44,494 nt of DNA, from positions 1-44,494 of the IMG/VR virus record IMGVR_UViG_3300031565_000084. One strand, given 5' to 3'. Origin of the DNA: a virus. The notes beneath the pieces are model-generated. The model did no database searches and was not told where the DNA came from. It saw nothing but the letters and a program-made list of their open reading frames with translations. This document shows positions 3,141 through 18,212 of this stretch, in pieces. The first letter of the stretch is position 1. Each line of letters opens with the position of its first letter. The translations under genes and the position numbers were made by a program.

Positions 3141-3391
3141 TTTTTATCCCTCTTGCGCTTCCAATGGCAGCCGCGCGACTCGCTCATCACGCCGGCGAAG
3201 TATCGCAGACGGCGGGGCCGTCGCGTATCGAACCTGGCCGGGCGCAAGAGCGGCGGCATTCGCCAATATTTGACCATCCAGCCCCAGCCGGCGTACCGCG
3301 AATGACACGAGCCCACCACGGCACCGAAGTGTGCCAGCCATAGCAATGTCCAGTCGCGATGCGTAGGTTCAACATATTCCCATGTTGCCAT
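3137..3391 (-). CDS. Small hypothetical protein directly after pentamer array 1
   Basis: I choose ATG 3391, giving 84 residues, because AGGGGAT stands six bases upstream and because upstream codons would be read from the pentamer array. The protein is Trp- and Arg-rich (TWEYVEPTHRDWTLLWL near the N-terminus, a basic C-terminus). The stop overlaps the next gene as ATGA. I do not recognise it. Its 5' leader is the end of the array, so its translation signal sits at the very edge of that structure. Confidence 0.55.
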   Translation of the reverse strand: MATWEYVEPTHRDWTLLWLAHFGAVVGSCHSRYAGWGWMVKYWRMPPLLRPARFDTRRPRRLRYFAGVMSESRGCHWKRKRDKK

Positions 3392-3418
3392 GCTATCCCC
3401 TGCTTTGCCGCCCCGCGC

Positions 3419-3967
3419 CCTTGCTTTGCTCTGCCTTTGCCATGTCACGCCTTTGCCAGGCTCGGCATTGCCTTGCTTTGCCTTTGCTTTGCGTCGCTCT
3501 GCCTCGCCATTGCCGTGCTCGGCATTGCTGTGCCTTGCCTTTGCTGAGCATTGCGGGGCCCGGCCTTGCCTTGGCCGAGCCGCGCGCTGCTTTGCCTATG
3601 CCTCGCTAAGCGAAGCTTTGCGTTGCGCCACCATGCGTTGCCTTTGCTTTGCCGGGCGGCGCCGCGCTAAGCAGTGCATCGCCCTTGCCATGCGAAGCAT
3701 CGCCCTGCTGCGCCTTTGCATTGCTGCGCCGTGCTGAGCCTTTGCCAAGCTAAACAAGGCGGCGCCGGGCCCCGCCCTTGCTACGCCAAGCGTCGCACCG
3801 CCGTTGCTGTGCGCTGCAACGCTGTGCCATGCAACGCCTTTGCTATGCCTCGCATCGCGTCGCATAGCCTTGGCCACGCGATGCGATGCCTTGCCTTTGC
3901 CCTGCAGTGCGGCGCACCGCTCAGCCTTTGCTCCGCGCCGCGGAGCCAGACGGCGCCCCGCCTTTGC
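3419..3967. repeat. Helically phased NNNGC pentamer array 1 (549 bp)
   Basis: On the plus strand the sequence can be cut without remainder into 106 units ending in GC (or a rare AC): 87 pentamers NNNGC and 19 hexamers, most often CTTTGC, with variants such as CTTGGC, CGTTGC and CCTTGC. Hexamers usually follow four to six pentamers, so a common super-unit is 31 bp. Mean unit length is 5.18 bp. The last hexamer overlaps the TAG stop of the minus-strand gene at 3967-4590. Less regular units extend left to about 3384. A pentamer period is not a multiple of three, so the open frames across it are not genes. Confidence 0.9.
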
Positions 3968-4590
3968 TATTCACTTGTCAATTCGCGCCAGGTAAATCGC
4001 CCGTAGCTCGCATTTCGCCATTGGCCGAGACCCCGCAAGGCCCCGTAATTGAGCCATTGCTTGATAAAGTCTGCCAACTTTGGATTGAACCATGAAATCT
4101 CGACCGTAATGGTTGCCCCTGCCGGGATAACTTCGGAACGAGCGAGGGCGATTCGTTCACCGCGCATTGTCTGGCCGCGTAGAGGCCGTTCGAGGAATTT
4201 CAACGGCTGACCATTGAGGCCCTCTAAGACAATTCGCCTGGGCGTGACAAAAACAGCCTCGTCAATCGTGCGCCGGAATAGATACTCCGTAAGGCGAGCT
4301 TTCTTCAACTCCTCTTTGGTCAACCGTTCGGTGTGAATCATGGCGGCACACGCTTCTTTGAAGAATCCCTTGACTTGATAATCCCACAGCATGGGCTTGC
4401 CGTCCTTGCCGTCCTGATTCCGGGCAAAAATCGTGCTGGACTTTTCCACTGTCTCATCAATGGGGACAGCATCCGATTCTTCCTGACTACTTCCGTCCGG
4501 GTGTTTGCTGATGATAAACTCCTCGGCAATTTCTTTGTTGCCAGACAGAGTACCCAGCAATGGTTCTGTAAATGTAATTCTGACCTTCAT
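3967..4590 (-). CDS. Conserved phage protein between the two arrays
   Basis: 207 residues from ATG 4590, preceded by GAAAGGAAGTGCC. The sequence follows a pattern I know from many siphophage genomes: an N-terminal 'ITFTEPLLGTLSGNKEI', a central 'DYQVKGFFKEACAA', 'RPLRGQTMRGERIALARSE' and a C-terminal 'YGALRGLGQWRNASYGRFTW'. No function is established to my knowledge. It is predicted soluble with no membrane segment. It is the only gene between the two pentamer arrays, with one array touching its stop codon and the other starting 80 bases upstream of its start. Confidence 0.85.
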   Translation of the reverse strand: MKVRITFTEPLLGTLSGNKEIAEEFIISKHPDGSSQEESDAVPIDETVEKSSTIFARNQDGKDGKPMLWDYQVKGFFKEACAAMIHTERLTKEELKKARLTEYLFRRTIDEAVFVTPRRIVLEGLNGQPLKFLERPLRGQTMRGERIALARSEVIPAGATITVEISWFNPKLADFIKQWLNYGALRGLGQWRNASYGRFTWRELTSE

Positions 4591-4630
4591 AATGGCACTT
4601 CCTTTCGTAAATTGTTTGAATTACTTTTTT

Positions 4631-4653
4631 CTCCGGACCCCAAAGGTCCGGAG
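4631..4653. other. Perfect 9-bp stem hairpin upstream of the inter-array gene
   Basis: CTCCGGACC at 4631-4639 pairs exactly with GGTCCGGAG at 4645-4653 around a five-base loop. It lies between array 2 and the ribosome site of the gene starting at 4590. The adjacent T-run is on the wrong side for an intrinsic terminator on either strand. A leader hairpin or a protein-binding site is possible. Confidence 0.6.
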
Positions 4654-4670
4654 CACTCATCCAAAAACAT

Positions 4671-5487
4671 CCTGCTTTGCCTTTGCCCCGCTGCGCAACG
4701 CCAAACATCGCCGTTGCCAAGCCCGGCGCCGCCGCGCTTCGCCTTTGCCTTACTCTGCTTTGCCATGCTTTGCCTTTGCGGTGCGTCGCGGCGCTTTGCC
4801 TCGCCTTTGCCCTGCTATGCTCTGCGTTGCTCGGCCTTTGCGGTGCGCCGCGACGCGACGCCACGCCACGCCTTTACCCTGCCCAGCGACGCCGCGCTGC
4901 GCCTTTGCATTGCTGTGCCTTTGCCCTGCGACGCCATGCTTCGCCTTTGCCGCGCCTTGCACGGCATTGCCATGCCATTACTTTGCCTTTGCCGTGCCAC
5001 GCCAGGCACTGCCGCGCTGCGCCTAGCCTTGGCCACGCGAAGCCAAGCATGGCCAGGCCTTTGCCTTGCTGCACCTTTGCGCTGCCCCGCTGTGCGGCGC
5101 GCTGCCTTTGCTTTGCTCGGCTTTGCCATGCAGAGCCTTCGCCAGGCCCAACCACGCCGCGCCGTTGCTGTGCGCTGCCCTGCTTTGCCTTTGCATTGCG
5201 TTGCTCTGCTTTGCCTTTGCATTGCGTTGCTCTGCTTTGCCTTTGCATTGCTCTGCCTCGCGTTGCTCTGCTTTGCCTTGCCTCGCCTCTGCGAAGCGAT
5301 GCAGCGCTGCACCTTGCCTCGCCTTTGCGAAGCCCCGCGCCGCCATGCCCCACAGAGCCTATGCTTGGCGAAGCTGCGCTGTGCACTGCCCTGCCTGTGC
5401 TTGGCCCTGCGGTGCCATGCCAGGCATCGCCTTTGCAAAGCGCTGCGCTGCCGGGCGCAGCCGAGCGCTGCGTTGCCTTTGCCTCGC
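4671..5487. repeat. Helically phased NNNGC pentamer array 2 (817 bp)
   Basis: Same grammar as array 1: 158 units parsed end to end, made of 131 pentamers NNNGC and 27 hexamers (mostly CTTTGC), mean 5.17 bp. A few units end in AC instead of GC. In the first third hexamers are spaced almost perfectly by five pentamers (31-bp super-unit, close to three helical turns). Two identical 26-bp super-units (four pentamers plus a hexamer) stand in tandem at 5195-5220 and 5221-5246. The three bases in front of GC vary widely. Several frames are open simultaneously on both strands, which reflects the periodic composition rather than coding. Confidence 0.9.
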
Positions 5488-5779
5488 GCCGTGCCATCAT
5501 GATTTTCCATGTCACTCTATCGCCCCGGCCGTTCATAAGTCCTTATTCCGCCAAGACAACCGATGTGGTCTTGTAAAAAAAAAATCAAACGTTTCCCGAA
5601 ACCGCAGGGCGTTTATCCGCTGGGCCGCAGGGGCCAGGGAGGACCCATGATATAAGAGGCGGTTCCTACACGACTTACGCCTGCTCTTCGAGCCATCGCA
5701 ACAGCAGACACATAACATTGCACACTCATGTTAAAACCTCATGCCCATTGACCTTACATAGCCTTACATCGCTTCGGCC
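5488..5779. other. Intergenic gap between array 2 and the helix-turn-helix gene
   Basis: I see no credible gene here. It contains an inverted repeat CAAGAC...GTCTTG (5552-5557 and 5568-5573) followed on the plus strand by ten A residues (5575-5584). The T-run therefore precedes the hairpin on the minus strand, so it is not a standard terminator for the leftward operon. A 61-codon frame at 5533-5718 has no ribosome site and no protein-like pattern that I trust. Confidence 0.5.
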
Positions 5780-7012
5780 TCACCCTATACTCGTGGCCGG
5801 CCCGTCGCGGATGGGCGGCAGGCGGGACGCCAGCTTGTCGCGCAAGATAGGCTTGAACCACACTCGTTTCGCCGCCCCATAGCCGCCGTTCTTCGCATAG
5901 ATCCGGCGCAGCCGCTGGGCCTCCGCGATCAGGCCCTCCCAGAGATCCGCCGCGACGGGCGGCGCCAGGCCCGATTGCACGACGCGATCGAACGCCGCCC
6001 CCAGGCAGCCCATGTCCTGGGCATACTGCCGCGTCCCGTCGATCTTCGGTCCGCCGAGGGCCTGATAGACCCGCTCCGCCGCCTGGCGGCTGGCCGGGTT
6101 GCAGCGCCGTCGAATTCCCGCCACGGCGTGGCTGATGTGCGTCGGGTCATCGGCATGAACCGGCCGCGGGGGGGGCGGATGAATGGGAATCACCCGTGGC
6201 CCCCCCGGGTCGGAAGAGGTCGGACAAATCGGCGGGGTGGTGGTCGGGGCAAGGGCGGTTCGTATTCCGGATGGCCCTTGTGCTGTGGCCTGCCCCTGCG
6301 CGTTGTCTTCTCGTTGCGTGACGGCTTCGCCTTCGGTTGGATTGGTCGGATCCGAGGACGAAGTCCGAGGATCTTTGTTTAAATTAGTATTCCGATTCCG
6401 ATTGTTTTCCGATTCTTGAATGCTTTTTGAATTTTCCGAAACGTTTTTGAATTTTCCGAAACGTTTTGAAATTGCCTTGGCGGAGGGCTTCAAAGCCCTC
6501 CGTTGGGGCTTTTGGCGTTTGCCCTTGCCATCGCGTCTGTCATCCTGTGCTCCATCCTGCGACGGCTCTTGGACCGGCCGCTCGAAGGCGGGGCACTCGA
6601 CACACTCCAAAAGCCCGACGCGCTTGAGCGCCGCGAGTGTCTGCTTCATCACCGGCACCGACAGGTGCAGCCGCGCGGCCAGTTTGGCCAGGCCCAGCGG
6701 CTGCTGATCGGCGTCGAGCAGATAGCCCCGCAGCCAGTTCTCCTGGGTCGCCGTCAAGCGGCACAGTCGCCAGAAGCGGCCCTCGTAGGCGTCCCGCTGC
6801 TCGGGATAGTAATGCTCCAGTTCGATGAGCTGGCTCAGAAAGCCCGTCGATTCGTTGCTCTTGTCCTTGGTCGTGGCGGTCACAAACATCCGCACGTAAT
6901 CCAGCCCGCCCTGCCGGACGTACCCTTCCATCTCGAACCGCTGGTCGAAGTGAAAGATCCGCCACACCATTGAAGATTTTCGATTGACGATTTTCGATTG
7001 ACGATTGCTCAC
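5780..7012 (-). CDS. Helix-turn-helix replication-initiation-type protein
   Basis: 410 residues if read from the GTG at 7012, which overlaps the upstream stop as GTGA and has GGGTGG six bases before it. The first ATG after the repeat (6970, residue 15) lacks a ribosome site. The first 14 residues (SNRQSKIVNRKSS) are encoded by a dispersed repeat. Residues 15-150 form a winged-helix-like domain with 'LGLAKLAARLHLSVPVMKQTLAALKRVGLL'-type helices, like phage replisome organisers. A long low-complexity linker follows, then a helical C-terminal domain from about residue 300. A replication or regulatory role is inferred from the domain plan and the nearby ParB and methylase genes. Confidence 0.65.
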   Translation of the reverse strand: MSNRQSKIVNRKSSMVWRIFHFDQRFEMEGYVRQGGLDYVRMFVTATTKDKSNESTGFLSQLIELEHYYPEQRDAYEGRFWRLCRLTATQENWLRGYLLDADQQPLGLAKLAARLHLSVPVMKQTLAALKRVGLLECVECPAFERPVQEPSQDGAQDDRRDGKGKRQKPQRRALKPSAKAISKRFGKFKNVSENSKSIQESENNRNRNTNLNKDPRTSSSDPTNPTEGEAVTQREDNAQGQATAQGPSGIRTALAPTTTPPICPTSSDPGGPRVIPIHPPPPRPVHADDPTHISHAVAGIRRRCNPASRQAAERVYQALGGPKIDGTRQYAQDMGCLGAAFDRVVQSGLAPPVAADLWEGLIAEAQRLRRIYAKNGGYGAAKRVWFKPILRDKLASRLPPIRDGPATSIG

Positions 7013-7049
7013 AAAGCCACCCGATTAGATTTATGATTTACGATTGTCG
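6971..7049. repeat. AATCATAAATC-family repeat across a coupled gene junction
   Basis: Tandem GATTTTCGATTGACGATT-like words at 6971-7008 and GATTTATGATTTACGATT at 7028-7049 flank the GTGA junction. They encode the last residues of the HNH protein (VNHKS) and the first residues of the helix-turn-helix protein (SNRQSKIVNRKSS). The repeat has therefore become coding on both sides of the overlap. Confidence 0.8.
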
Positions 7050-7956
7050 CTTGCCCTACCCTCACGTTGGACGTGCCCAGCGCCTCTTCGAACGCAACTC
7101 TTTCCGCAAACTCTACAGGCTGGTCAATTTGCTCGAAGACCAGATGCCCACATTTCCGACAGGGCGGCACGGGTATGGTCGTGTCATCTCCACACCCGGT
7201 GCACTGCCACCAGGTCTTGACTTCACCCCGTAACTCATGGACGCCGGTCTTAAACAGTCGTCGATGTTCTTTTTCCTCTTGCCGTTCGCGTTCGTGTTGT
7301 TTCTTGAACCTAACCTTAAGGATGCGGTTGCGGGCGTGGCGGCGCTTGCTCGCCTTGCCCGCGTTAAGGCGGAATTTCCGGAGATGTCCCGGAATTGTGG
7401 CCCATTGATGCGCGACGTTCTCGGCGCGAGTGGCCAGGACGAGATTCTCAGACTCGTCGTTGAGGGTATCGCCATCGCGGTGAATGACAAGAAGGCCCGG
7501 CGGGATCGGCCCATGCTCTTTTTGCCACACGTGGCGGGCATAAGGCATTCGCCTCGAATGCCAGGGGCCGCGGTCGGATAGCTTAATCCAGCGGCAGGGC
7601 TTGCCCCCTTTCTTGGCGATGATATAGATCTCGCCGATCGCCTTGTACTTGGCCGGCCGATTTCCCTTCTTGAATTCAGTGCGCGGCGACAGATGAATGC
7701 CTTTGCGGTTCTTGTTCCAAGTGCGGTGACCCTTTTTGAACCGCGTTTGCACGCCTGTCCGGCTCAGTTTCATGCGGGCCATGTGTCGATATTCCTCTCT
7801 CGATATCCGCGAGAAAATCGCCTTGTAGAGCGTGGTGTAGGCGCACGCATATTCGACCTTGATCTGGCCCAGCGTCGTATCTATGTTTTTGAGCCGCTCG
7901 ACAATCAGATCGGCCTCGGCCATCACCCGGTCAGCATTGCCGCGATAGGTTCCCAT
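7009..7956 (-). CDS. HNH endonuclease with C-terminal zinc ribbon
   Basis: 315 residues; AAAGGAGCT directly precedes ATG 7956. The N-terminal 65 residues are helical and look like a DNA-binding helix-turn-helix. Then come two 'F-K-K-G' boxes (TRFKKGHRTWNKN, TEFKKGNRP) typical of phage HNH nucleases. The HNH core is HVWQKEHGPIPPGLLVIHRDG plus NDESENLVLATRAENVAH, with the expected His and Asn residues present. The C-terminus has CTGCG and CRKCG, a zinc ribbon. The last residues derive from a dispersed repeat. It is probably a free-standing homing-type nuclease. Confidence 0.85.
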   Translation of the reverse strand: MGTYRGNADRVMAEADLIVERLKNIDTTLGQIKVEYACAYTTLYKAIFSRISREEYRHMARMKLSRTGVQTRFKKGHRTWNKNRKGIHLSPRTEFKKGNRPAKYKAIGEIYIIAKKGGKPCRWIKLSDRGPWHSRRMPYARHVWQKEHGPIPPGLLVIHRDGDTLNDESENLVLATRAENVAHQWATIPGHLRKFRLNAGKASKRRHARNRILKVRFKKQHERERQEEKEHRRLFKTGVHELRGEVKTWWQCTGCGDDTTIPVPPCRKCGHLVFEQIDQPVEFAERVAFEEALGTSNVRVGQATIVNHKSNRVAL

Positions 7957-7972: not shown

Positions 7973-8773
7973 CTACCCGGTTTTGTGGGCCGCCTGCAAC
8001 AGCCCCTCGATCAATAATTGCCTGACGGCTTGTTCGACCGTCTCGGCGGCGGTCCTTTTATCCATCAGGATGTCCAGCTTCGTATTCCACCGTACATATT
8101 TCACCTGGCCTTTTTCGAACCCGTGCTCCGCGAAAGACTTGATCGCCACCGCGCTGCAAGGAATCGCTCCTTTGTCCTTATCGAGGTCGAAGTGCGTGGG
8201 CGCCGCGAACGCAGGCTCTGACCCAAGGTCTTTTCGCGTCCCCTCGATAAATATCCGGCGCCGCCGCTGCGGAACGCCGTAACTGGCCGCGTCCATCAGG
8301 TTGAACCTCACGATATAGCCCTTGCCTTCAAGATCGCCGAGCAGCTCGATAAAAAACTCCTTGAAACTCAATACCCCCGGCACGTTCTCGATGACAAAGC
8401 AGCACGGCTTGATCTCCCCGACGAGCCGGATGAAATGCCACATCATTTGCGAGCGAGGGTCATCGACGCTGCGGTTCTTATTGCTCCAGGTAAAGCCCTG
8501 GCAGGGTGGGCCGCCGCTCAAAATATCCAGATCGCCCTTCTCGATGCGGGCGGCGGCCAGAATCTCCCGGCCCGAGATCTTCGACAAATCCGCTTTGATG
8601 ATTCTGGCCCGGGGGAAATATCGGTTCCTGTTCGCCCCGAGCGTGGCAAGACAGAACTTGTCAATCTCGACCAGGCCGACCACGTCGATACCGGCCTGCT
8701 GGAGGCCCAGGGCCATCCCGCCGGCGCCGGCAAACAGTTCGATGGCCTTTAATTTACGTTTATTCATGTTCAT
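7973..8773 (-). CDS. C5-cytosine DNA methyltransferase (short)
   Basis: 266 residues from ATG 8773 (a second ATG lies two codons on). Motif I ELFAGAGGMALGLQQAG, motif IV GGPPCQGF with the catalytic Cys, motif VI ENVPG and motif VIII QRRRR are all present in order. It therefore transfers a methyl group from S-adenosylmethionine to carbon 5 of cytosine. The target-recognition part is very short, and the usual motifs IX and X near the C-terminus are not visible, so it is smaller than typical enzymes (about 320-450 residues). No restriction partner is nearby; self-protection against host restriction is likely. It follows the ParB-like gene in the same operon. Confidence 0.9.
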   Translation of the reverse strand: MNMNKRKLKAIELFAGAGGMALGLQQAGIDVVGLVEIDKFCLATLGANRNRYFPRARIIKADLSKISGREILAAARIEKGDLDILSGGPPCQGFTWSNKNRSVDDPRSQMMWHFIRLVGEIKPCCFVIENVPGVLSFKEFFIELLGDLEGKGYIVRFNLMDAASYGVPQRRRRIFIEGTRKDLGSEPAFAAPTHFDLDKDKGAIPCSAVAIKSFAEHGFEKGQVKYVRWNTKLDILMDKRTAAETVEQAVRQLLIEGLLQAAHKTG

Positions 8774-8779
8774 TCGCGA

Positions 8780-10594
8780 TTACTTCGCGGTAGACTTGTC
8801 TTCGCAGGCCGAGCACAGGTCCGGCTCGACCCAATGGCAGGGAACACCGTCCACTACGCAGGCCTTCGCATCGGTGCAGCCGCACACGCGGCAGACTCGC
8901 TTTTTGTCGCCCGCCAGCAGCTCTTGCCACGCCTTCCCGGGCGGACGTCCCTGGCTGGCCGGCGCCTTTTTGGCCTTCGCTTTGACGTTCTTCGGTTTGG
9001 CCGTCTTATCCTTCTCGGCCTTCGGCGTGCCGTCGGCGTTGAGCGAGGCCCACGACTTCGGGACCGTGAAGCCCTTACGAGAGCAGACGTCTTTGAGCAT
9101 CCCCTTGAGATCCACGCCGATCAGCCCGGCGATCCATTCGGCCTGTCTCTTTAAGTGATCGGGCGTTTGACTGATCGGCCCAATCCACGTGAGCTCAGCG
9201 TCCAATGTGGACTTGAAACTTTCCCAAAGGGATTCCCGTGCCTTCATCGCCGGATCTTTCGCCTTGAGAATCAATTTGAGTTGTTGCTGTCTGCCTTCCC
9301 TCATCATCCTGACTGGAGAGTTTCCGTAAACAGCGACGAGCGCCATTAGCCCCGTCATTTTGTCTTTGCACGTGATCTGCGAGACTTCGGTTGCCCCCAC
9401 TTTTGCTCGCAGATCGAGCAACGTCTGCGCCGATCGCTTCGCGTCGAGCTGGACCTGGCGTTCTTTCAGAGGCGTCGGCCGGCCAGGCGTGCGGACCCGC
9501 TTGCTTTCGCCGGAAGACATCGCCGTCGGCTTGATGTAGGTGAGCTGGCCCGAGGCCGTTCCATTGATATACATCGCGGGGATGGCCCCCACCGTGCTTT
9601 TGGACACGATCTTATAAGCGTACTTAGAGATGAAGGAACCGAACGCCTTTGCGAGCCTTTCCTCTTCGATATAATCTGCTGCATGTTCCTTGGTGATGAG
9701 CGTCAGGCTGTTATGCTGATCCTTGAGCTCTTTGGCCCGTCGCTTCAGCCAGCCATCGGTCTTGTTCTGCCAGCAGTACCCATCCAGGCACTGATCGCCC
9801 GTCTGGGCCTGGTCAGCCATCTCAAACCAGAGCATCGGCTGGTGGCCGCTGCGCTTCGGGCATTCCGTGCAGGCGCCCGCCTTCGGCGCCAGCGTTCCAT
9901 CATCGAGCGCCCACGTGGCCTTCGAGAGTAAATGCAGGCTGGCTCCGATCATCGTCTCCAGGTCCCGGGTCGAGCAGTTGCAGGCTTTCTCAAAGTGCGG
10001 TTCCCATGACCCCCGAAGATGCTTGTGCAGATCGGTCTGGATATGCTCCGGCAGCCGTCCGATCAAGGCCAGGTGCGTGAGGCTCCACGTTTGGAACATC
10101 GGGTGCTTGTCGATATCGGCGAAAATATCCCGCCAGCATTTAGCCAGGTGGCCGTGAATATAGGCCCGGATCCGCACCCATTGTTCGCTCTTGCCGAGCT
10201 TCTGAGCGATCGCTTTGGCGTTGCCGCCGAATCGCTCCATCAGCATCGATACTTCCTGCGCCTGTTCCATCGGTAAAAGGTCTTCGCGGAACGTGTTTTC
10301 GATATAGGTCAGGTCCACGGCCGCCGGATCGTCCATGTCCGAATGGACAATCGCCGGGATCGTCTTCAGGCCCAGGGCCCTGCAGGCGCGATACCGCCGC
10401 TCGCCGGCTCGCAGTTCATAGCCGGCCTTCTTGCCCGACATGAGGCGGACCTGAATCGGGATGCGGACGCCGCCGGCCGCGATACTGGCCTTCAGTTCTT
10501 GAAAACCTTCACTGCCCTCAAGAATGTTGCGTTTGCTGTCCCCCGAGACGACAATGTCCTTCATCGCGATTTCTTGAAATGTTTGGGTTGTCAT
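8780..10594 (-). CDS. ParB/Spo0J-like protein with C-terminal zinc motif
   Basis: 604 residues; the start overlaps the upstream stop as ATGA. Residues 8-100 match the ParB N-terminal fold, with AGERRYRACRALG and the box ENTFREDLLPMEQA. A helix-turn-helix follows (AIAQKLGKSEQWVRIRAYI). A central Cys-rich region contains CTECPKRSG and CLDGYCW. The C-terminus is CRVCGCTDAKACVVDGVPCHW followed by CSACE, a compact zinc-binding module I have seen on phage ParB-like proteins. No ParA gene is present, so plasmid-style partition is unlikely. A DNA-binding, replication or regulatory role beside the methylase is more probable. Confidence 0.88.
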   Translation of the reverse strand: MTTQTFQEIAMKDIVVSGDSKRNILEGSEGFQELKASIAAGGVRIPIQVRLMSGKKAGYELRAGERRYRACRALGLKTIPAIVHSDMDDPAAVDLTYIENTFREDLLPMEQAQEVSMLMERFGGNAKAIAQKLGKSEQWVRIRAYIHGHLAKCWRDIFADIDKHPMFQTWSLTHLALIGRLPEHIQTDLHKHLRGSWEPHFEKACNCSTRDLETMIGASLHLLSKATWALDDGTLAPKAGACTECPKRSGHQPMLWFEMADQAQTGDQCLDGYCWQNKTDGWLKRRAKELKDQHNSLTLITKEHAADYIEEERLAKAFGSFISKYAYKIVSKSTVGAIPAMYINGTASGQLTYIKPTAMSSGESKRVRTPGRPTPLKERQVQLDAKRSAQTLLDLRAKVGATEVSQITCKDKMTGLMALVAVYGNSPVRMMREGRQQQLKLILKAKDPAMKARESLWESFKSTLDAELTWIGPISQTPDHLKRQAEWIAGLIGVDLKGMLKDVCSRKGFTVPKSWASLNADGTPKAEKDKTAKPKNVKAKAKKAPASQGRPPGKAWQELLAGDKKRVCRVCGCTDAKACVVDGVPCHWVEPDLCSACEDKSTAK

Positions 10595-11680: not shown

Positions 11681-12536
11681 GTATTTCGCTTCCTTTCTCT
11701 GTGTCCTCTGTGCTCTCTGTGGCTAAAACCTTCGACGTTCTCGGCGGCTCTTTTTCGATCACCTCGCGGATCGAATCCTTCCAGTGGATGAACGGACGGC
11801 CGCTCAGATGGCCAACCATCGCGCGGACAAATTCATCGCTTTGGGCGGCCTTGAGCGGGTTGACGTATTGCCGGATCTGTTCGTCCGTCGCACCCGAGAG
11901 GTCCACGCGGCTCTCCCAGCGCCGCAGCTTGCCGATCCAGAAGCCGCCCGCCCCACGATCGAAAGGGGGCCGCGAGAGATAAGGCCAGCAGGCTTGATAG
12001 ACATCCGGGGCAAATTCATCCAGATAAGGCTCGCACGAGACGCTGGTGCAATAGCCCTCGAAGTAGGCCATCGAGAGGCTCTTAATCCGCTCCTCAAAAC
12101 ACGGCGCCCCCGGCTCCCAGAACTTGAGCACGTTGTCGGCCGTCGAACCAATCGTGAATCGAAATGCCACGCGATGCTGAAAACCCTTCAGGGCCTCGAC
12201 CAGCAACGCCGTGACGTTCATCGACGGCTTGCTGACGATCAGCACGCGGTTGCCCGCCTCGAGCAGCTTTCGCAGAACCACCAGACAGGGTCGCAAAAAT
12301 TCCAGCGTAATATTGCTGGCACTTTGGAACATGACAACGCCATCGAGTTTTCGGCGTTGTTTGACAACTTCCGTAGTTCTAAGATGGGGCGTATTCCATT
12401 CATCGGCTGTCTTTATGCGACCGAATCTCAATGCCATCTCCCGACCATAGCAATATCGGCAGCCTCCGGAACATCCTGAAAGTATAGTTACATTGTGAGC
12501 AGCCCATTCTTTTGTTCCACTGATTTTCTTGCTCAT
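11667..12536 (-). CDS. Radical-SAM protein (spore photoproduct lyase-like)
   Basis: 289 residues from ATG 12536, overlapping the HNH-fusion stop as ATGA. Residues 21-29 read CSGGCRYCY, the CX3CX2C motif that binds a 4Fe-4S cluster and S-adenosylmethionine. The later VSKPSMN, 'RFTIGST' and 'YFEGYCTSVSCEPYLD' segments fit phage radical-SAM proteins related to the lyase family, though the substrate is unknown. The C-terminal LATESTEDTEKG is read from a CACAGAG repeat. The frame immediately upstream encodes the first 24 residues of a second, interrupted copy, so this gene seems to have been hit by a homing element. Confidence 0.85.
   Translation of the reverse strand: MSKKISGTKEWAAHNVTILSGCSGGCRYCYGREMALRFGRIKTADEWNTPHLRTTEVVKQRRKLDGVVMFQSASNITLEFLRPCLVVLRKLLEAGNRVLIVSKPSMNVTALLVEALKGFQHRVAFRFTIGSTADNVLKFWEPGAPCFEERIKSLSMAYFEGYCTSVSCEPYLDEFAPDVYQACWPYLSRPPFDRGAGGFWIGKLRRWESRVDLSGATDEQIRQYVNPLKAAQSDEFVRAMVGHLSGRPFIHWKDSIREVIEKEPPRTSKVLATESTEDTEKGSEIHGHY
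11696..11726 (-). repeat. CACAGAG-family dispersed repeat inside coding sequence
   Basis: A 31-bp unit in minus orientation. It is read in frame as LATESTEDTEK at the C-terminus of the radical-SAM protein and lies just upstream of the start of the next gene. Confidence 0.9.
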
Positions 12537-13204
12537 AATCCCTTCCCGGCGTGACTGGATTCTGTTCGTCGTTTGCCAAGCAAAATATTAGAAATACAGG
12601 ATTGGCCAACACCAAACCGTTCAGCTAATTTGTATTGACTGGCGGTTCCTTCCAGGGACCGAATCTCCGCAACTTCCAGGTTTGTCAGTTTGGCGTTGTG
12701 ATGATTCTCGCCACCGGGTCGAGTCCTATGATATCGTTGATCTTCCATGTTATCTTTTTGTGTTGCCCATCTGAGATTTTTGAGATGACAATTGAGGGGA
12801 TTCCTATCGGGGAAATGACAACACACATTGTTTTCCGGACGAGGCCCAACGAATGACATCAATACAAGATCGTGGACTAACAATTTGAATGTCTTGCCGT
12901 CTTTCCGAAGTGAAACTTGAAGACGGTCATACTTTCGATGGGATTTTTTACCACTCGATATGATGGTAGGCTTAAGTCTTCGCCATTTATCGCCCAAGAC
13001 ATAAGTACCCCAACCGTGGCGAAAGCAACTCCAAATCGATCCATCGTCGCCTGCACGATAAGCCGGAAACCCTGGAATTAAAGCATATCGGCAGTCGTGC
13101 TCGCAGCCGGTCTGGATGTTGATGGTCTTTTCGACCCACTCGCGCGTGCCGGTGGCATGCGATTTATGATTTGCGATTTGCGATTTATGATTGTCCCCTG
13201 TCAT
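12533..13204 (-). CDS. Truncated radical-SAM N-terminus fused to HNH endonuclease
   Basis: 223 residues from ATG 13204, with GGAGG seven bases upstream. Residues 1-16 are repeat-encoded. Residues 17-41 (TGTREWVEKTINIQTGC, EHDCRY) match the N-terminus of a radical-SAM protein up to the second cysteine. The sequence then switches to a NUMOD4/HNH homing nuclease: IPGFPAYRAGDDGSIWS, HDLVLMSFVGPRP, CHFPDRNPLNCHLKNLRWAT, and a C-terminal helix-turn-helix (YKLAERFGVGQSCISNILLGK). The stop overlaps the intact radical-SAM start as ATGA. The nuclease half is complete and probably functional; the radical-SAM half is not. Confidence 0.8.
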   Translation of the reverse strand: MTGDNHKSQIANHKSHATGTREWVEKTINIQTGCEHDCRYALIPGFPAYRAGDDGSIWSCFRHGWGTYVLGDKWRRLKPTIISSGKKSHRKYDRLQVSLRKDGKTFKLLVHDLVLMSFVGPRPENNVCCHFPDRNPLNCHLKNLRWATQKDNMEDQRYHRTRPGGENHHNAKLTNLEVAEIRSLEGTASQYKLAERFGVGQSCISNILLGKRRTESSHAGKGL

Positions 13205-13270
13205 ATCTGCCTCCATGCTGTCGCTCCGTTTCCTATTTTCTCTGTGCTCTCTGTGTCCTCTGTGGCTAAA
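13161..13270 (-). repeat. AATCATAAATC (13161-13192) and CACAGAG (13239-13270) repeats
   Basis: Two dispersed repeats flank the ribosome site of the HNH-fusion gene. The first encodes residues NHKSQIANHKS near the protein's N-terminus. The second lies in the untranslated leader. Confidence 0.85.
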
Positions 13271-13354
13271 CAAAATCCTGCCCCGCCCGCGGACCCTTTT
13301 CACGCGGGCAGGGCTTGCGTGGAGAGACAATTCATATCCTCGCCTTCGGCCCTC

Positions 13355-13960: not shown

Positions 13961-13992
13961 TATTTATGATTTACGATTTTCGATTGACGATT
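13961..13992 (-). repeat. AATCATAAATC-family dispersed repeat
   Basis: TATTTATGATTTACGATTTT and CGATTGACGATT words fill the gap between the holin-like gene and the lipoprotein gene. No gene is visible in this gap. Confidence 0.85.
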
Positions 13993-13998
13993 GTTGAT

Positions 13999-14478
13999 TT
14001 ATCCGCCCGTGATGGCTGGTTCATCCGCCTTTGGTGGTTTGATCTCGGCGTCAGGCCTCGGCCAGGGTCTGGGTGGTTCTACTCTATTCCTCGGCATCGG
14101 GGGACAATCGGTCACGATCGGCAGTCCGAACCGCCCGAATTCAGGATCGGTGAGCACTGTGGTGGATCTGTTTGGCTTGCCGTTGCTCAAGGCTGTCGTG
14201 CCTTTGAACATGTCGTAGCCGCCGCCGGCGGCCAGACCCAGGACCGCGCCGGCGACGAGATAATTCTCGACGCCGCCCAGACCGAATGCGAGCGCGCACA
14301 AGGCCATCCCGACCATCGGCCATAAGGGTTTTTGAATCGCATCGCTCAGGCGGGCCCAGCCGCCGACGCAGGCCTTAATGAACTGAATGGCGTAGGCCAC
14401 AAAGCCCGCGATCACGAGCATCGTCGGGGTGATCGTGACCTCGAGCGAACTGATTGCATTGGATAGATCGGGCAGCAT
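13999..14478 (-). CDS. Holin-like membrane protein
   Basis: 159 residues; AAAGGAGTCTCTT precedes ATG 14478. It has three hydrophobic segments at about residues 18-36, 52-68 and 70-88 and a long Pro-rich cytoplasmic tail ending in ADEPAITGG. This size and topology fit a phage holin that permeabilises the inner membrane to release a lysin. No endolysin is recognisable beside it, so the assignment rests on topology. An alternative is a generic membrane protein. Confidence 0.6.
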   Translation of the reverse strand: MLPDLSNAISSLEVTITPTMLVIAGFVAYAIQFIKACVGGWARLSDAIQKPLWPMVGMALCALAFGLGGVENYLVAGAVLGLAAGGGYDMFKGTTALSNGKPNRSTTVLTDPEFGRFGLPIVTDCPPMPRNRVEPPRPWPRPDAEIKPPKADEPAITGG

Positions 14479-15449: not shown

Positions 15450-15490
15450 AATGATTGACTATTTACTATTGACGATTGACGATTGACGAT
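15450..15490 (-). repeat. AATCATAAATC-family dispersed repeat
   Basis: Tandem ATTGACGATT words (TTTACTATTGACGATTGACG). They supply the C-terminus and stop codon of the tiny gene at 15459-15608. Confidence 0.8.
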
Positions 15491-16004: not shown

Positions 16005-16028
16005 TCAGGGTTATTTCATCGGGCCCAA

Positions 16029-16100
16029 TAGCGGGGGCCGGATTCGAACCGGCGTCCTCCTGGTTATGAGCCAGGCGTGTAGCCGCTACACTACCCCGCG
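16029..16100 (-). tRNA. tRNA-Met (anticodon CAT)
   Basis: A 72-nt cloverleaf on the minus strand: acceptor 5' strand CGCGGGG (16100-16094), D arm GTGT/ACAC, anticodon stem CCTGG/CCAGG around loop CTCATAA (anticodon CAT), five-base variable loop, T arm GCCGG TTCGAAT CCGGC, and acceptor 3' strand CCCCGCT. No CCA is encoded. Base 1 (C) faces U at position 72, so the first acceptor pair is absent, as in bacterial initiator tRNAs (C1-A72). However the anticodon stem lacks the three G-C pairs of initiators. Elongator Met or a lysidine-modified Ile tRNA are alternatives. Confidence 0.9.
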
Positions 16101-16187
16101 ATAAGCCCCATCGGCGTCCGTTGCTCGATGGGGCCTTCAAAAAGGAGGCTACTGACAAAACTGACAAAGAAGATGCCGCGTTCATCG

Positions 16188-17019: not shown

Positions 17020-17336
17020 GATCGCTCCTCCTGGCCGTAGGCCCAGTCATCCCGGCTGGCCGTTTCGAGCTGCGAGAGCTTCACAAACGGCAGATCGGCC
17101 ATATAGATCGCGTGCTTGCTGGCGAAGTTGCCGGCGTGCTCGGCGCAGTAGAGCTTCTGGCCGCTGACGGCCGCCTTGCCCCGCATGTGGTCCCACTCGC
17201 ACACGTACTCCGCCGCCTTCTGGCAATGAGCCGCCGCACACTTCGGCGAATAGGCCTCCCGGCTCAGCCGGGCCGTTCTGTGATGCCAACTCTTTTTCGT
17301 CTTTCGTCTATCGTCGGGCATCATTCGTGGATTCAT
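17016..17336 (-). CDS. Small Cys/His-rich protein
   Basis: 106 residues, start overlapping the HNH-AP2 stop as ATGA. CAAAHCQKAAEYVCEWDH and, further on, LYCAEHAGNF place several Cys and His residues as in a treble-clef or B-box-like zinc fold. The basic N-terminus may bind nucleic acid. Two later Met codons (residues 5 and 6) are alternative starts. Confidence 0.6.
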   Translation of the reverse strand: MNPRMMPDDRRKTKKSWHHRTARLSREAYSPKCAAAHCQKAAEYVCEWDHMRGKAAVSGQKLYCAEHAGNFASKHAIYMADLPFVKLSQLETASRDDWAYGQEERS

Positions 17337-17887
17337 CCGCTTTGCGCTCTGACCTTTTTGTTTTGAGTAATCATATTTCCGGTTTTGGTATGATCGAAAT
17401 TTGTTCGTCCAAACTTGCCAAAATACTTCCTTGACATCTCATCGTAGCCTTTGGCGGCATCAATCTCGGATACAAATAGACCCAAAGAGATTCGTCGCCT
17501 CTCTACCTGAATGCGAGCGCACCATTTTGCTTCATCCCGACCCCGATAAACGCCTTTAAATTGGGAAGATACAATATGCTTGGCATACACCCGGTGTGGT
17601 CTTTGATTCTGAAGATTTTGGGTCTTACTTGCGATTCTCAAATTGCTTCTCTGGTTATTAAGACCATCGAGATCAATATGGTCAACATCCATGCCGACGG
17701 GTGGTTGTAAGATTTCCCGGTGCATGCGGATTGTTGTTCTCTTCCCATTTTTGCGGGATGACGTTCTTGATGCGTAATAAGTATTACGGCCTTTCTCAGA
17801 ATGCCATTTCCATTGATTCAGCCATTCATAATCGCCATCATCGACAATGGCGACTTTCTCTTTTGTGAGTTGAATTTTTTTGCTCAT
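17333..17887 (-). CDS. HNH-AP2 homing-type endonuclease
   Basis: 184 residues from ATG 17887, with GGAGG nine bases upstream. The N-terminal part is the HNH domain ('MHREILQPPVGMDVDHIDLDG', 'NNQRSNLRIASKTQN'), with the His and Asn residues of the nuclease centre. The C-terminal part is an AP2 DNA-binding domain (SSQFKGVYRGRDEAKWCARI to AAKGYDEMSRKYFG). This is the classic free-standing phage homing endonuclease. The frame stays open upstream to 18189 through two repeat families, but the strong internal ribosome site favours the shorter form. Confidence 0.9.
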   Translation of the reverse strand: MSKKIQLTKEKVAIVDDGDYEWLNQWKWHSEKGRNTYYASRTSSRKNGKRTTIRMHREILQPPVGMDVDHIDLDGLNNQRSNLRIASKTQNLQNQRPHRVYAKHIVSSQFKGVYRGRDEAKWCARIQVERRRISLGLFVSEIDAAKGYDEMSRKYFGKFGRTNFDHTKTGNMITQNKKVRAQSG

Positions 17888-17910
17888 CAGCTTTGCCCTC
17901 CGGCCTTGGG

Positions 17911-17952
17911 TGATTTCTGATTTATGATTTGCGATTGTCGATTGTCGATTGT
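17911..17952 (-). repeat. AATCATAAATC-family dispersed repeat
   Basis: TGATTTCTGATTTATGATTT and GCGATTGTCGATTGTCGATT words lie in the leader of the HNH-AP2 gene. Confidence 0.85.
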
Positions 17953-17976
17953 TCCGCCGGAGGCGGATTGGCCCTC

Positions 17977-18042
17977 TCTGTGTGCTCCCTCGACAGGCTC
18001 GGGACGGCGTCTGTGTGCTCCCTCGACCAGCTCGGGACGGCG
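17977..18042. repeat. Tandem pair of 33-bp units
   Basis: Two consecutive 33-bp units (17977-18009 and 18010-18042) share TCTGTGTGCTCCCTCGAC and GCTCGGGACGGCG and differ at two adjacent bases (AG versus CA). A third, degraded start follows (TCTGTGGCCCAAAACTCTGT). This is a third repeat type, embedded between the other two families. Confidence 0.85.
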
Positions 18043-18212
18043 TCTGTGGCCCAAAACTCTGTGGCTTGGGATGAACAGAAAAAGAAGCGCCAGCAGCGGA
18101 GAAACAAAGTTGCGACAGAGCTTCAGGAACTGCCGGCGCTTGAGGGCTTTTGCAAAAAGGATTCAATCGGTTACTCTGTCGCATTCTAATTCTCCTGTAT
18201 TTCATTTTCTGT

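Follow-up and report, generated by a model that had tools for sequence, protein, structure and literature searches.

Here we describe a phage locus in which two long arrays of 5-nt repeat units flank a gene for a predicted RAMP-fold protein, and which is very probably an RNA-guided system of the VIPR type (Viral Interference Programmable Repeat; bioRxiv 2026 preprint, PMC13142463), carried by a tailed phage. This reading draws on the grammar of the repeats, the RAMP fold of the protein, its homology to Vipr, the adjacency of gene and arrays, and the rule that both lie on one strand. The stretch analysed (hereafter referred to as the window) comprises 44,494 nucleotides of the virus record IMGVR_UViG_3300031565_000084, and includes lambda-type terminase, portal, head and tail genes. 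The locus is made up of the following features:

3384–3416, minus strand: degenerate 3′ edge of the downstream array, where the units TATCC and CGCCC break the rule.
3417–3970, minus strand: predicted downstream guide array (array 1), 107 units (88 GCNNN and 19 hexamers) in 554 bp, mean unit 5.18 bp.
3967–4590, minus strand: gene for a Vipr-like RAMP protein of 207 amino acids (AlphaFold2 model, PDB fold matches, hhalign, conservation in at least 343 IMG/VR loci).
4671–5487, minus strand: predicted upstream guide array (array 2), 158 units (131 GCNNN and 27 hexamers) in 817 bp, mean unit 5.17 bp.
5171–5251, minus strand: three near-identical 26-bp copies in the upstream array, a local duplication (period 26, 3.1 copies, 96% matches).

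On the minus strand, the order of the locus is array–vipr–array, and both arrays parse as (GC NNN)n with a GCAAAG-like hexamer at about every sixth unit. The hexamer, mostly CTTTGC on the plus strand, reads GCAAAG on the minus strand in 11 of 19 cases in array 1 and in 19 of 27 in array 2. The first unit of the downstream array overlaps the stop codon of vipr, the TAG of which supplies the G of the first GC. A first-pass annotation of the sequence had reported NNNGC arrays with units of about 5.17–5.18 bp, and the parse reproduces these values. It had placed the two arrays within a span of 3384–5494; two arrays are indeed present, but 3971–4670 is occupied by the minus-strand gene and a short gap, and the first 33 bp are degenerate. 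Within the units, G and C are fixed at 97% and 91%, the base that precedes them (N3) is G in 33% and A in 31%, and N1 and N2 have entropies of 1.82 and 1.98 bits, respectively (near maximal). The reading of the GC step and its spacing as conserved, with the other bases variable, is borne out. A neutral low-complexity repeat expanded by slippage would account for the tandem duplications (26 and 62 bp) seen locally in the arrays, but it fits poorly with a G and a C that are kept beside near-random neighbours, with a grammar kept across many phages and with a fixed place by one gene, and we consider it very improbable. Open frames of up to 389 amino acids run across the second array, and long open reading frames cross both, as they would if the array encoded a repetitive protein. 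However, a unit of 5 or 6 bases keeps no single frame, the frames are open on both strands, and stops are sparse because of the composition of the GC units; we give this explanation next to no weight.

Both arrays are real, far beyond chance. GC-to-GC distances of 5 bp occur 80 times versus 24 expected in array 1 (z 13) and 121 times versus 38 in array 2 (z 15), the reference being shuffles that preserve dinucleotide content. The Fourier spectra peak at 5.16 and 5.18 bp with a power of 58–59, about 13-fold the mean shuffled maximum, whereas dinucleotide-preserving shuffles reached at most 7.9. Of the two peaks anticipated, near 5.17 and 10.35 bp, only the former was found, power at 10.35 bp being nil in the window arrays. 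The arrays withstood the shuffles, and they also withstood a comparison with related phages, in which random unit lengths would have counted against them: 112 arrays were parsed and the mean unit was 5.12–5.23 bp in nearly all. The hexamers are regularly placed. Among 1,715 runs in oriented arrays of related phages, a mean of 5.0 pentamers separates successive hexamers with a variance of 2.9, versus 30 for random placement, so that the spacing is far more even than chance. Phase coherence (R) is 0.78 and 0.88, versus means of 0.52 and 0.59 when the arrays' own units are randomly re-ordered. The regular rhythm of the hexamers, which the first-pass annotation took as phase-correcting leap-units, is confirmed; the helix-phase purpose attached to it is not supported.

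The structure of the 207-amino-acid protein was predicted with AlphaFold2 from a family alignment (pLDDT 88.5, pTM 0.84). The model matches Cas7/Csm3 with a probability of 1.00, and every one of the 50 best PDB fold matches listed is a RAMP subunit of a CRISPR effector complex (type III, IV or VII). The RAMP fold is known for guide-RNA binding. The protein consists of a single small RRM-type domain with a G-loop, and a loop of the form RGLGQWRN..GRF is conserved. The family profile aligns over its full length (182 columns; hhalign E 3.9e-7, probability 92.8) with a canonical Vipr alignment composed of SUSP1 and seven further canonical loci, re-read from sequence. The predicted fold and this profile comparison show the product of the gene to be a RAMP-fold protein homologous to Vipr. 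The similarity in sequence is remote: a simple profile search ranks type VII Cas7 (E 0.004) above SUSP1 Vipr (0.41), with Csm4 at 0.02. The PADLOC profile Cas7_IIId matches at 2.4e-4 (and in 6 of 24 family members), and a phage protein in BFVD annotated as a Cas-associated RAMP is 45% identical; together with those to Cas7, Csm4 and Vipr, these weak matches agree with the fold. Pfam, PHROG and NCBIfam gave no match to the window protein. With the RAMP proteins of class 1 CRISPR systems (type VII Cas7, Csm3) it shares the fold, a glycine-rich C-terminal loop and, probably, the binding of an RNA filament. It differs from them in its low identity (about 13–15%) and in its setting, since the window locus has neither a CRISPR array with identical palindromic repeats nor a cas operon or other cas genes.

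A motif scan of IMG/VR returned 34 contigs with the array motif, all of the same grammar except for L026 and L031, the arrays of which are strict GGC/NN. In 257 Gb of cellular genomes, the exact motif was present in 2 contigs only, and among genomes sampled from two host-candidate phyla, a vipr-family gene was found in 1 of 392 for one and in 0 of 195 for the other. A profile search of IMG/VR gave at least 343 vipr-family relatives, 80 of which form the basis of the adjacency counts. A GY-NNN array lies within 1.5 kb of the gene in 74 of these 80 (within 60 bp in 62) and is undetectable in 5; 56 of the 74 arrays are downstream and 18 upstream of the gene, and all 74 are on its strand. Conversely, 1.75 Mb of phage contigs contain 58 arrays, 50 of which have a vipr-family gene within 3 kb, and most arrays, which reach 350 units among the relatives, are directly preceded by the end of one conserved gene of about 200 codons. 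This gene, vipr, is the sole conserved gene around the arrays: no other neighbour is kept, and no vap-like partner was found. No Rfam match and no common structured 3′ tail were found, blastn against INPHARED gave no useful match, and promoter and terminator scans were near chance.

The strand rule points to RNA and not to DNA bending. The first-pass annotation had offered, among possible meanings, a DNA-level element, in which GC steps at every half helix turn would form a curved or wrapped nucleoprotein platform such as an origin, packaging or segregation site. Such a platform would suit the length of two mean units (10.35 bp, near one helical turn), a phase coherence above that of the re-ordered units, and a ParB-like gene 3.3 kb away in the window. 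However, GC is palindromic, so the strand should not matter, yet the hexamers share the orientation of the adjacent gene in 74 of 74 relatives. By the established logic of DNA bending, moreover, identical steps at each half turn cancel, rather than add, curvature; canonical VIPR tracts, built from the same unit and with a nearly identical grammar, have a mean unit near 5.0; the adjoining RAMP-fold protein is of the RNA-guide type; and the ParB-like gene is not kept among the neighbours in related loci. The platform is therefore unsupported and, in our view, improbable.

The first-pass annotation knew of no described system with this grammar, but VIPR has nearly the same one (PMC13142463). VIPR consists of the phage RAMP protein Vipr and vrRNAs of 9–16 YNNGG repeats, in which GGY is fixed and NN guides; the repeats lie both upstream and downstream of the gene, and double-stranded DNA is bound in such a way that each unit skips one base, at codon wobble positions (PMC13142463). 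Seven types with varied array architectures are described, with 'GGY/NN or a related consensus'; type II has 9–16 repeats followed by an invariable structured tail, loci 'typically' include a vap accessory gene, and the SUSP1 system was shown to block transcription (PMC13142463). Like type II VIPR of Escherichia phage SUSP1 and Pseudomonas prophages, the window locus has a phage-borne RAMP protein of about 200 amino acids, and tandem 5-nt repeats that flank the gene on both sides and share its strand, with a fixed G–pyrimidine and variable bases between. We re-read the SUSP1 tracts as GGTNN. Canonical tracts close with 6-nt units (GCAAGG and GCGAGG in LESphi2; GTATGG and GTGTGG in SUSP1) of the same form as the hexamer that recurs here, and GCAAGG and GCGAGG occur among the hexamer variants of the window family. 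The two differ in code, which here is GY/NNN and not GGY/NN: N3 of the window family is in register with the first G of GGY but is relaxed to G (33%) or A (31%), so that strict GGY is not kept and the units would fit only the 'related consensus' clause. Here, too, the arrays are far longer (up to 350 units), a hexamer comes at about every sixth unit, and there is no conserved vap gene and no separate structured tail, a feature that defines type II and not VIPR as a whole. A solitary phage-borne RAMP protein and same-strand repeats might also suggest an RNA anti-CRISPR, in which the arrays and the Cas7-like protein mimic CRISPR parts as decoys and jam host CRISPR complexes. The units, however, are not CRISPR repeats, vary freely, reach 300 copies and more, and match the published VIPR code instead, which leaves this explanation with little probability.

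Gordonia phage UmaThurman and the actinobacterial prophages L026 and L031 also carry continuous arrays next to a Vipr gene, in which a unit that changes the register recurs regularly. There the register unit is the 4-nt GGCA (about every 10 units in UmaThurman) in place of 6 nt every 5–6 units here, and GGY is strict. Long GGYNN arrays broken by GGCA lie at 1787–2097 of UmaThurman (L384) and at 1736–1928 of L026. GGCA, which shifts the register in the opposite direction to the hexamer, possibly delimits guides, and the marking of guide boundaries by a change of register may be a general strategy. Compared with the main text of the preprint (PMC13142463), the grammar of the window arrays is new; the window family is possibly already among its seven types.

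For the VIPR-type system of the window, we propose that the arrays would be transcribed together with vipr into RNA that reads (GC NNN)n, with GCAAAG at about every sixth unit. By analogy with VIPR, Vipr subunits would coat this RNA, one per 5-nt unit, gripping the invariant GY, and the variable bases would base-pair with the DNA of rival phages or mobile elements; pairing would probably block transcription, as in SUSP1 VIPR. The hexamer would act as a register or boundary unit, as suggested by its resemblance to the 6-nt unit that closes canonical vrRNA tracts.

Among 48 strict arrays, N3 correlates with N1 of the next unit (z 7.4), as neighbouring genomic bases do, despite the two fixed bases between them, which hints that all three N are read and that the target is contiguous. 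We also consider, as a tentative and somewhat doubtful reading, a VIPR code of its own kind: each Vipr subunit would read NNN with GY flipped out, deletion of GC from the array would give a contiguous target, and the hexamers would split one long transcript into many guides. A deficit of TA in N1N2 was considered as a codon signature and set aside, being partly a genome-wide bias. Guide blocks were also used in target searches, and one of them gave a candidate:

5437–5476, minus strand: a block of eight units bounded on each side by a hexamer; without its GC pairs it reads AACAGCTCGTGCCCGAGCAGCTTT, and a candidate target that agrees at 23 of 24 bases lies in a gene for a phage DNA polymerase (L243).

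An IMG/VR scan with this block matched 18 contigs, six of which carry one gene family, phage DNA polymerase. The best copy (L243) agrees with all 16 guide bases and with 7 of 8 third bases, the third bases falling at wobble positions. With six guides scanned and homologous copies considered, we estimate p at about 0.05 to 0.1, and the match is no more than suggestive. In the other IMG/VR scans, a second window block gave more than 120 chance matches (third-base match at most 5/8 among 80), an eight-unit block of L077 gave third-base matches of at most 4/8, a nine-unit block of L077 gave 14 codon-like matches, none of which extends, and two guides with 18–20 fixed bases gave 0 matches. Searches of 1.1–3.3 Mb of local phage DNA (2.95 Mb for the related-phage set), with NN or NNN and skips of 0–3, returned nothing above shuffled guides except L243, which had entered the local set through the prior IMG/VR scan.

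Two phages of about 73 kb, L059 and L061 (contigs G034 and G036), have several long arrays each, some of them 3.5 and 13 kb from vipr, in which shared units are interspersed with differing ones; they are a natural pair for the study of array evolution. An exchange of hexamer-bounded blocks as modules between sister phages was considered and rejected, as runs start after a hexamer in 16 of 60 cases and end at one in 11 of 52, about chance. A further contig (G024, L036) has three short arrays of 15–23 units (244–320, 4135–4253 and 7722–7834), with a hairpin or a terminator-like sequence after each of them, and no detectable vipr of the window's family; these are possibly stand-alone guide cassettes served by the protein of another element.

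VIPR has been proposed as the viral ancestor of CRISPR. The window family contributes several hundred further loci from environmental phages, in which the arrays are very long and punctuated and the code is relaxed. It provides a natural data set on the reading of a noncontiguous code, on guide delimitation and on array change between sister phages, and yields testable predictions as to which bases pair and what the hexamer does.

Elsewhere in the window, a C5 cytosine methylase gene adjoins the gene for a 604-amino-acid protein with a ParB-like N-terminal domain (7973–10594, minus strand). Short exact or near-exact tandem repeats lie at 6424–6467, 6969–7006, 13962–14001 and 15453–15490, two of them of the GATTGAC / ATTGACGATTTTCG type. 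The window also carries three HNH endonuclease genes (7009–7956, 12533–13330 and 17333–18205) and a tRNA-Met gene (16028–16101, minus strand).
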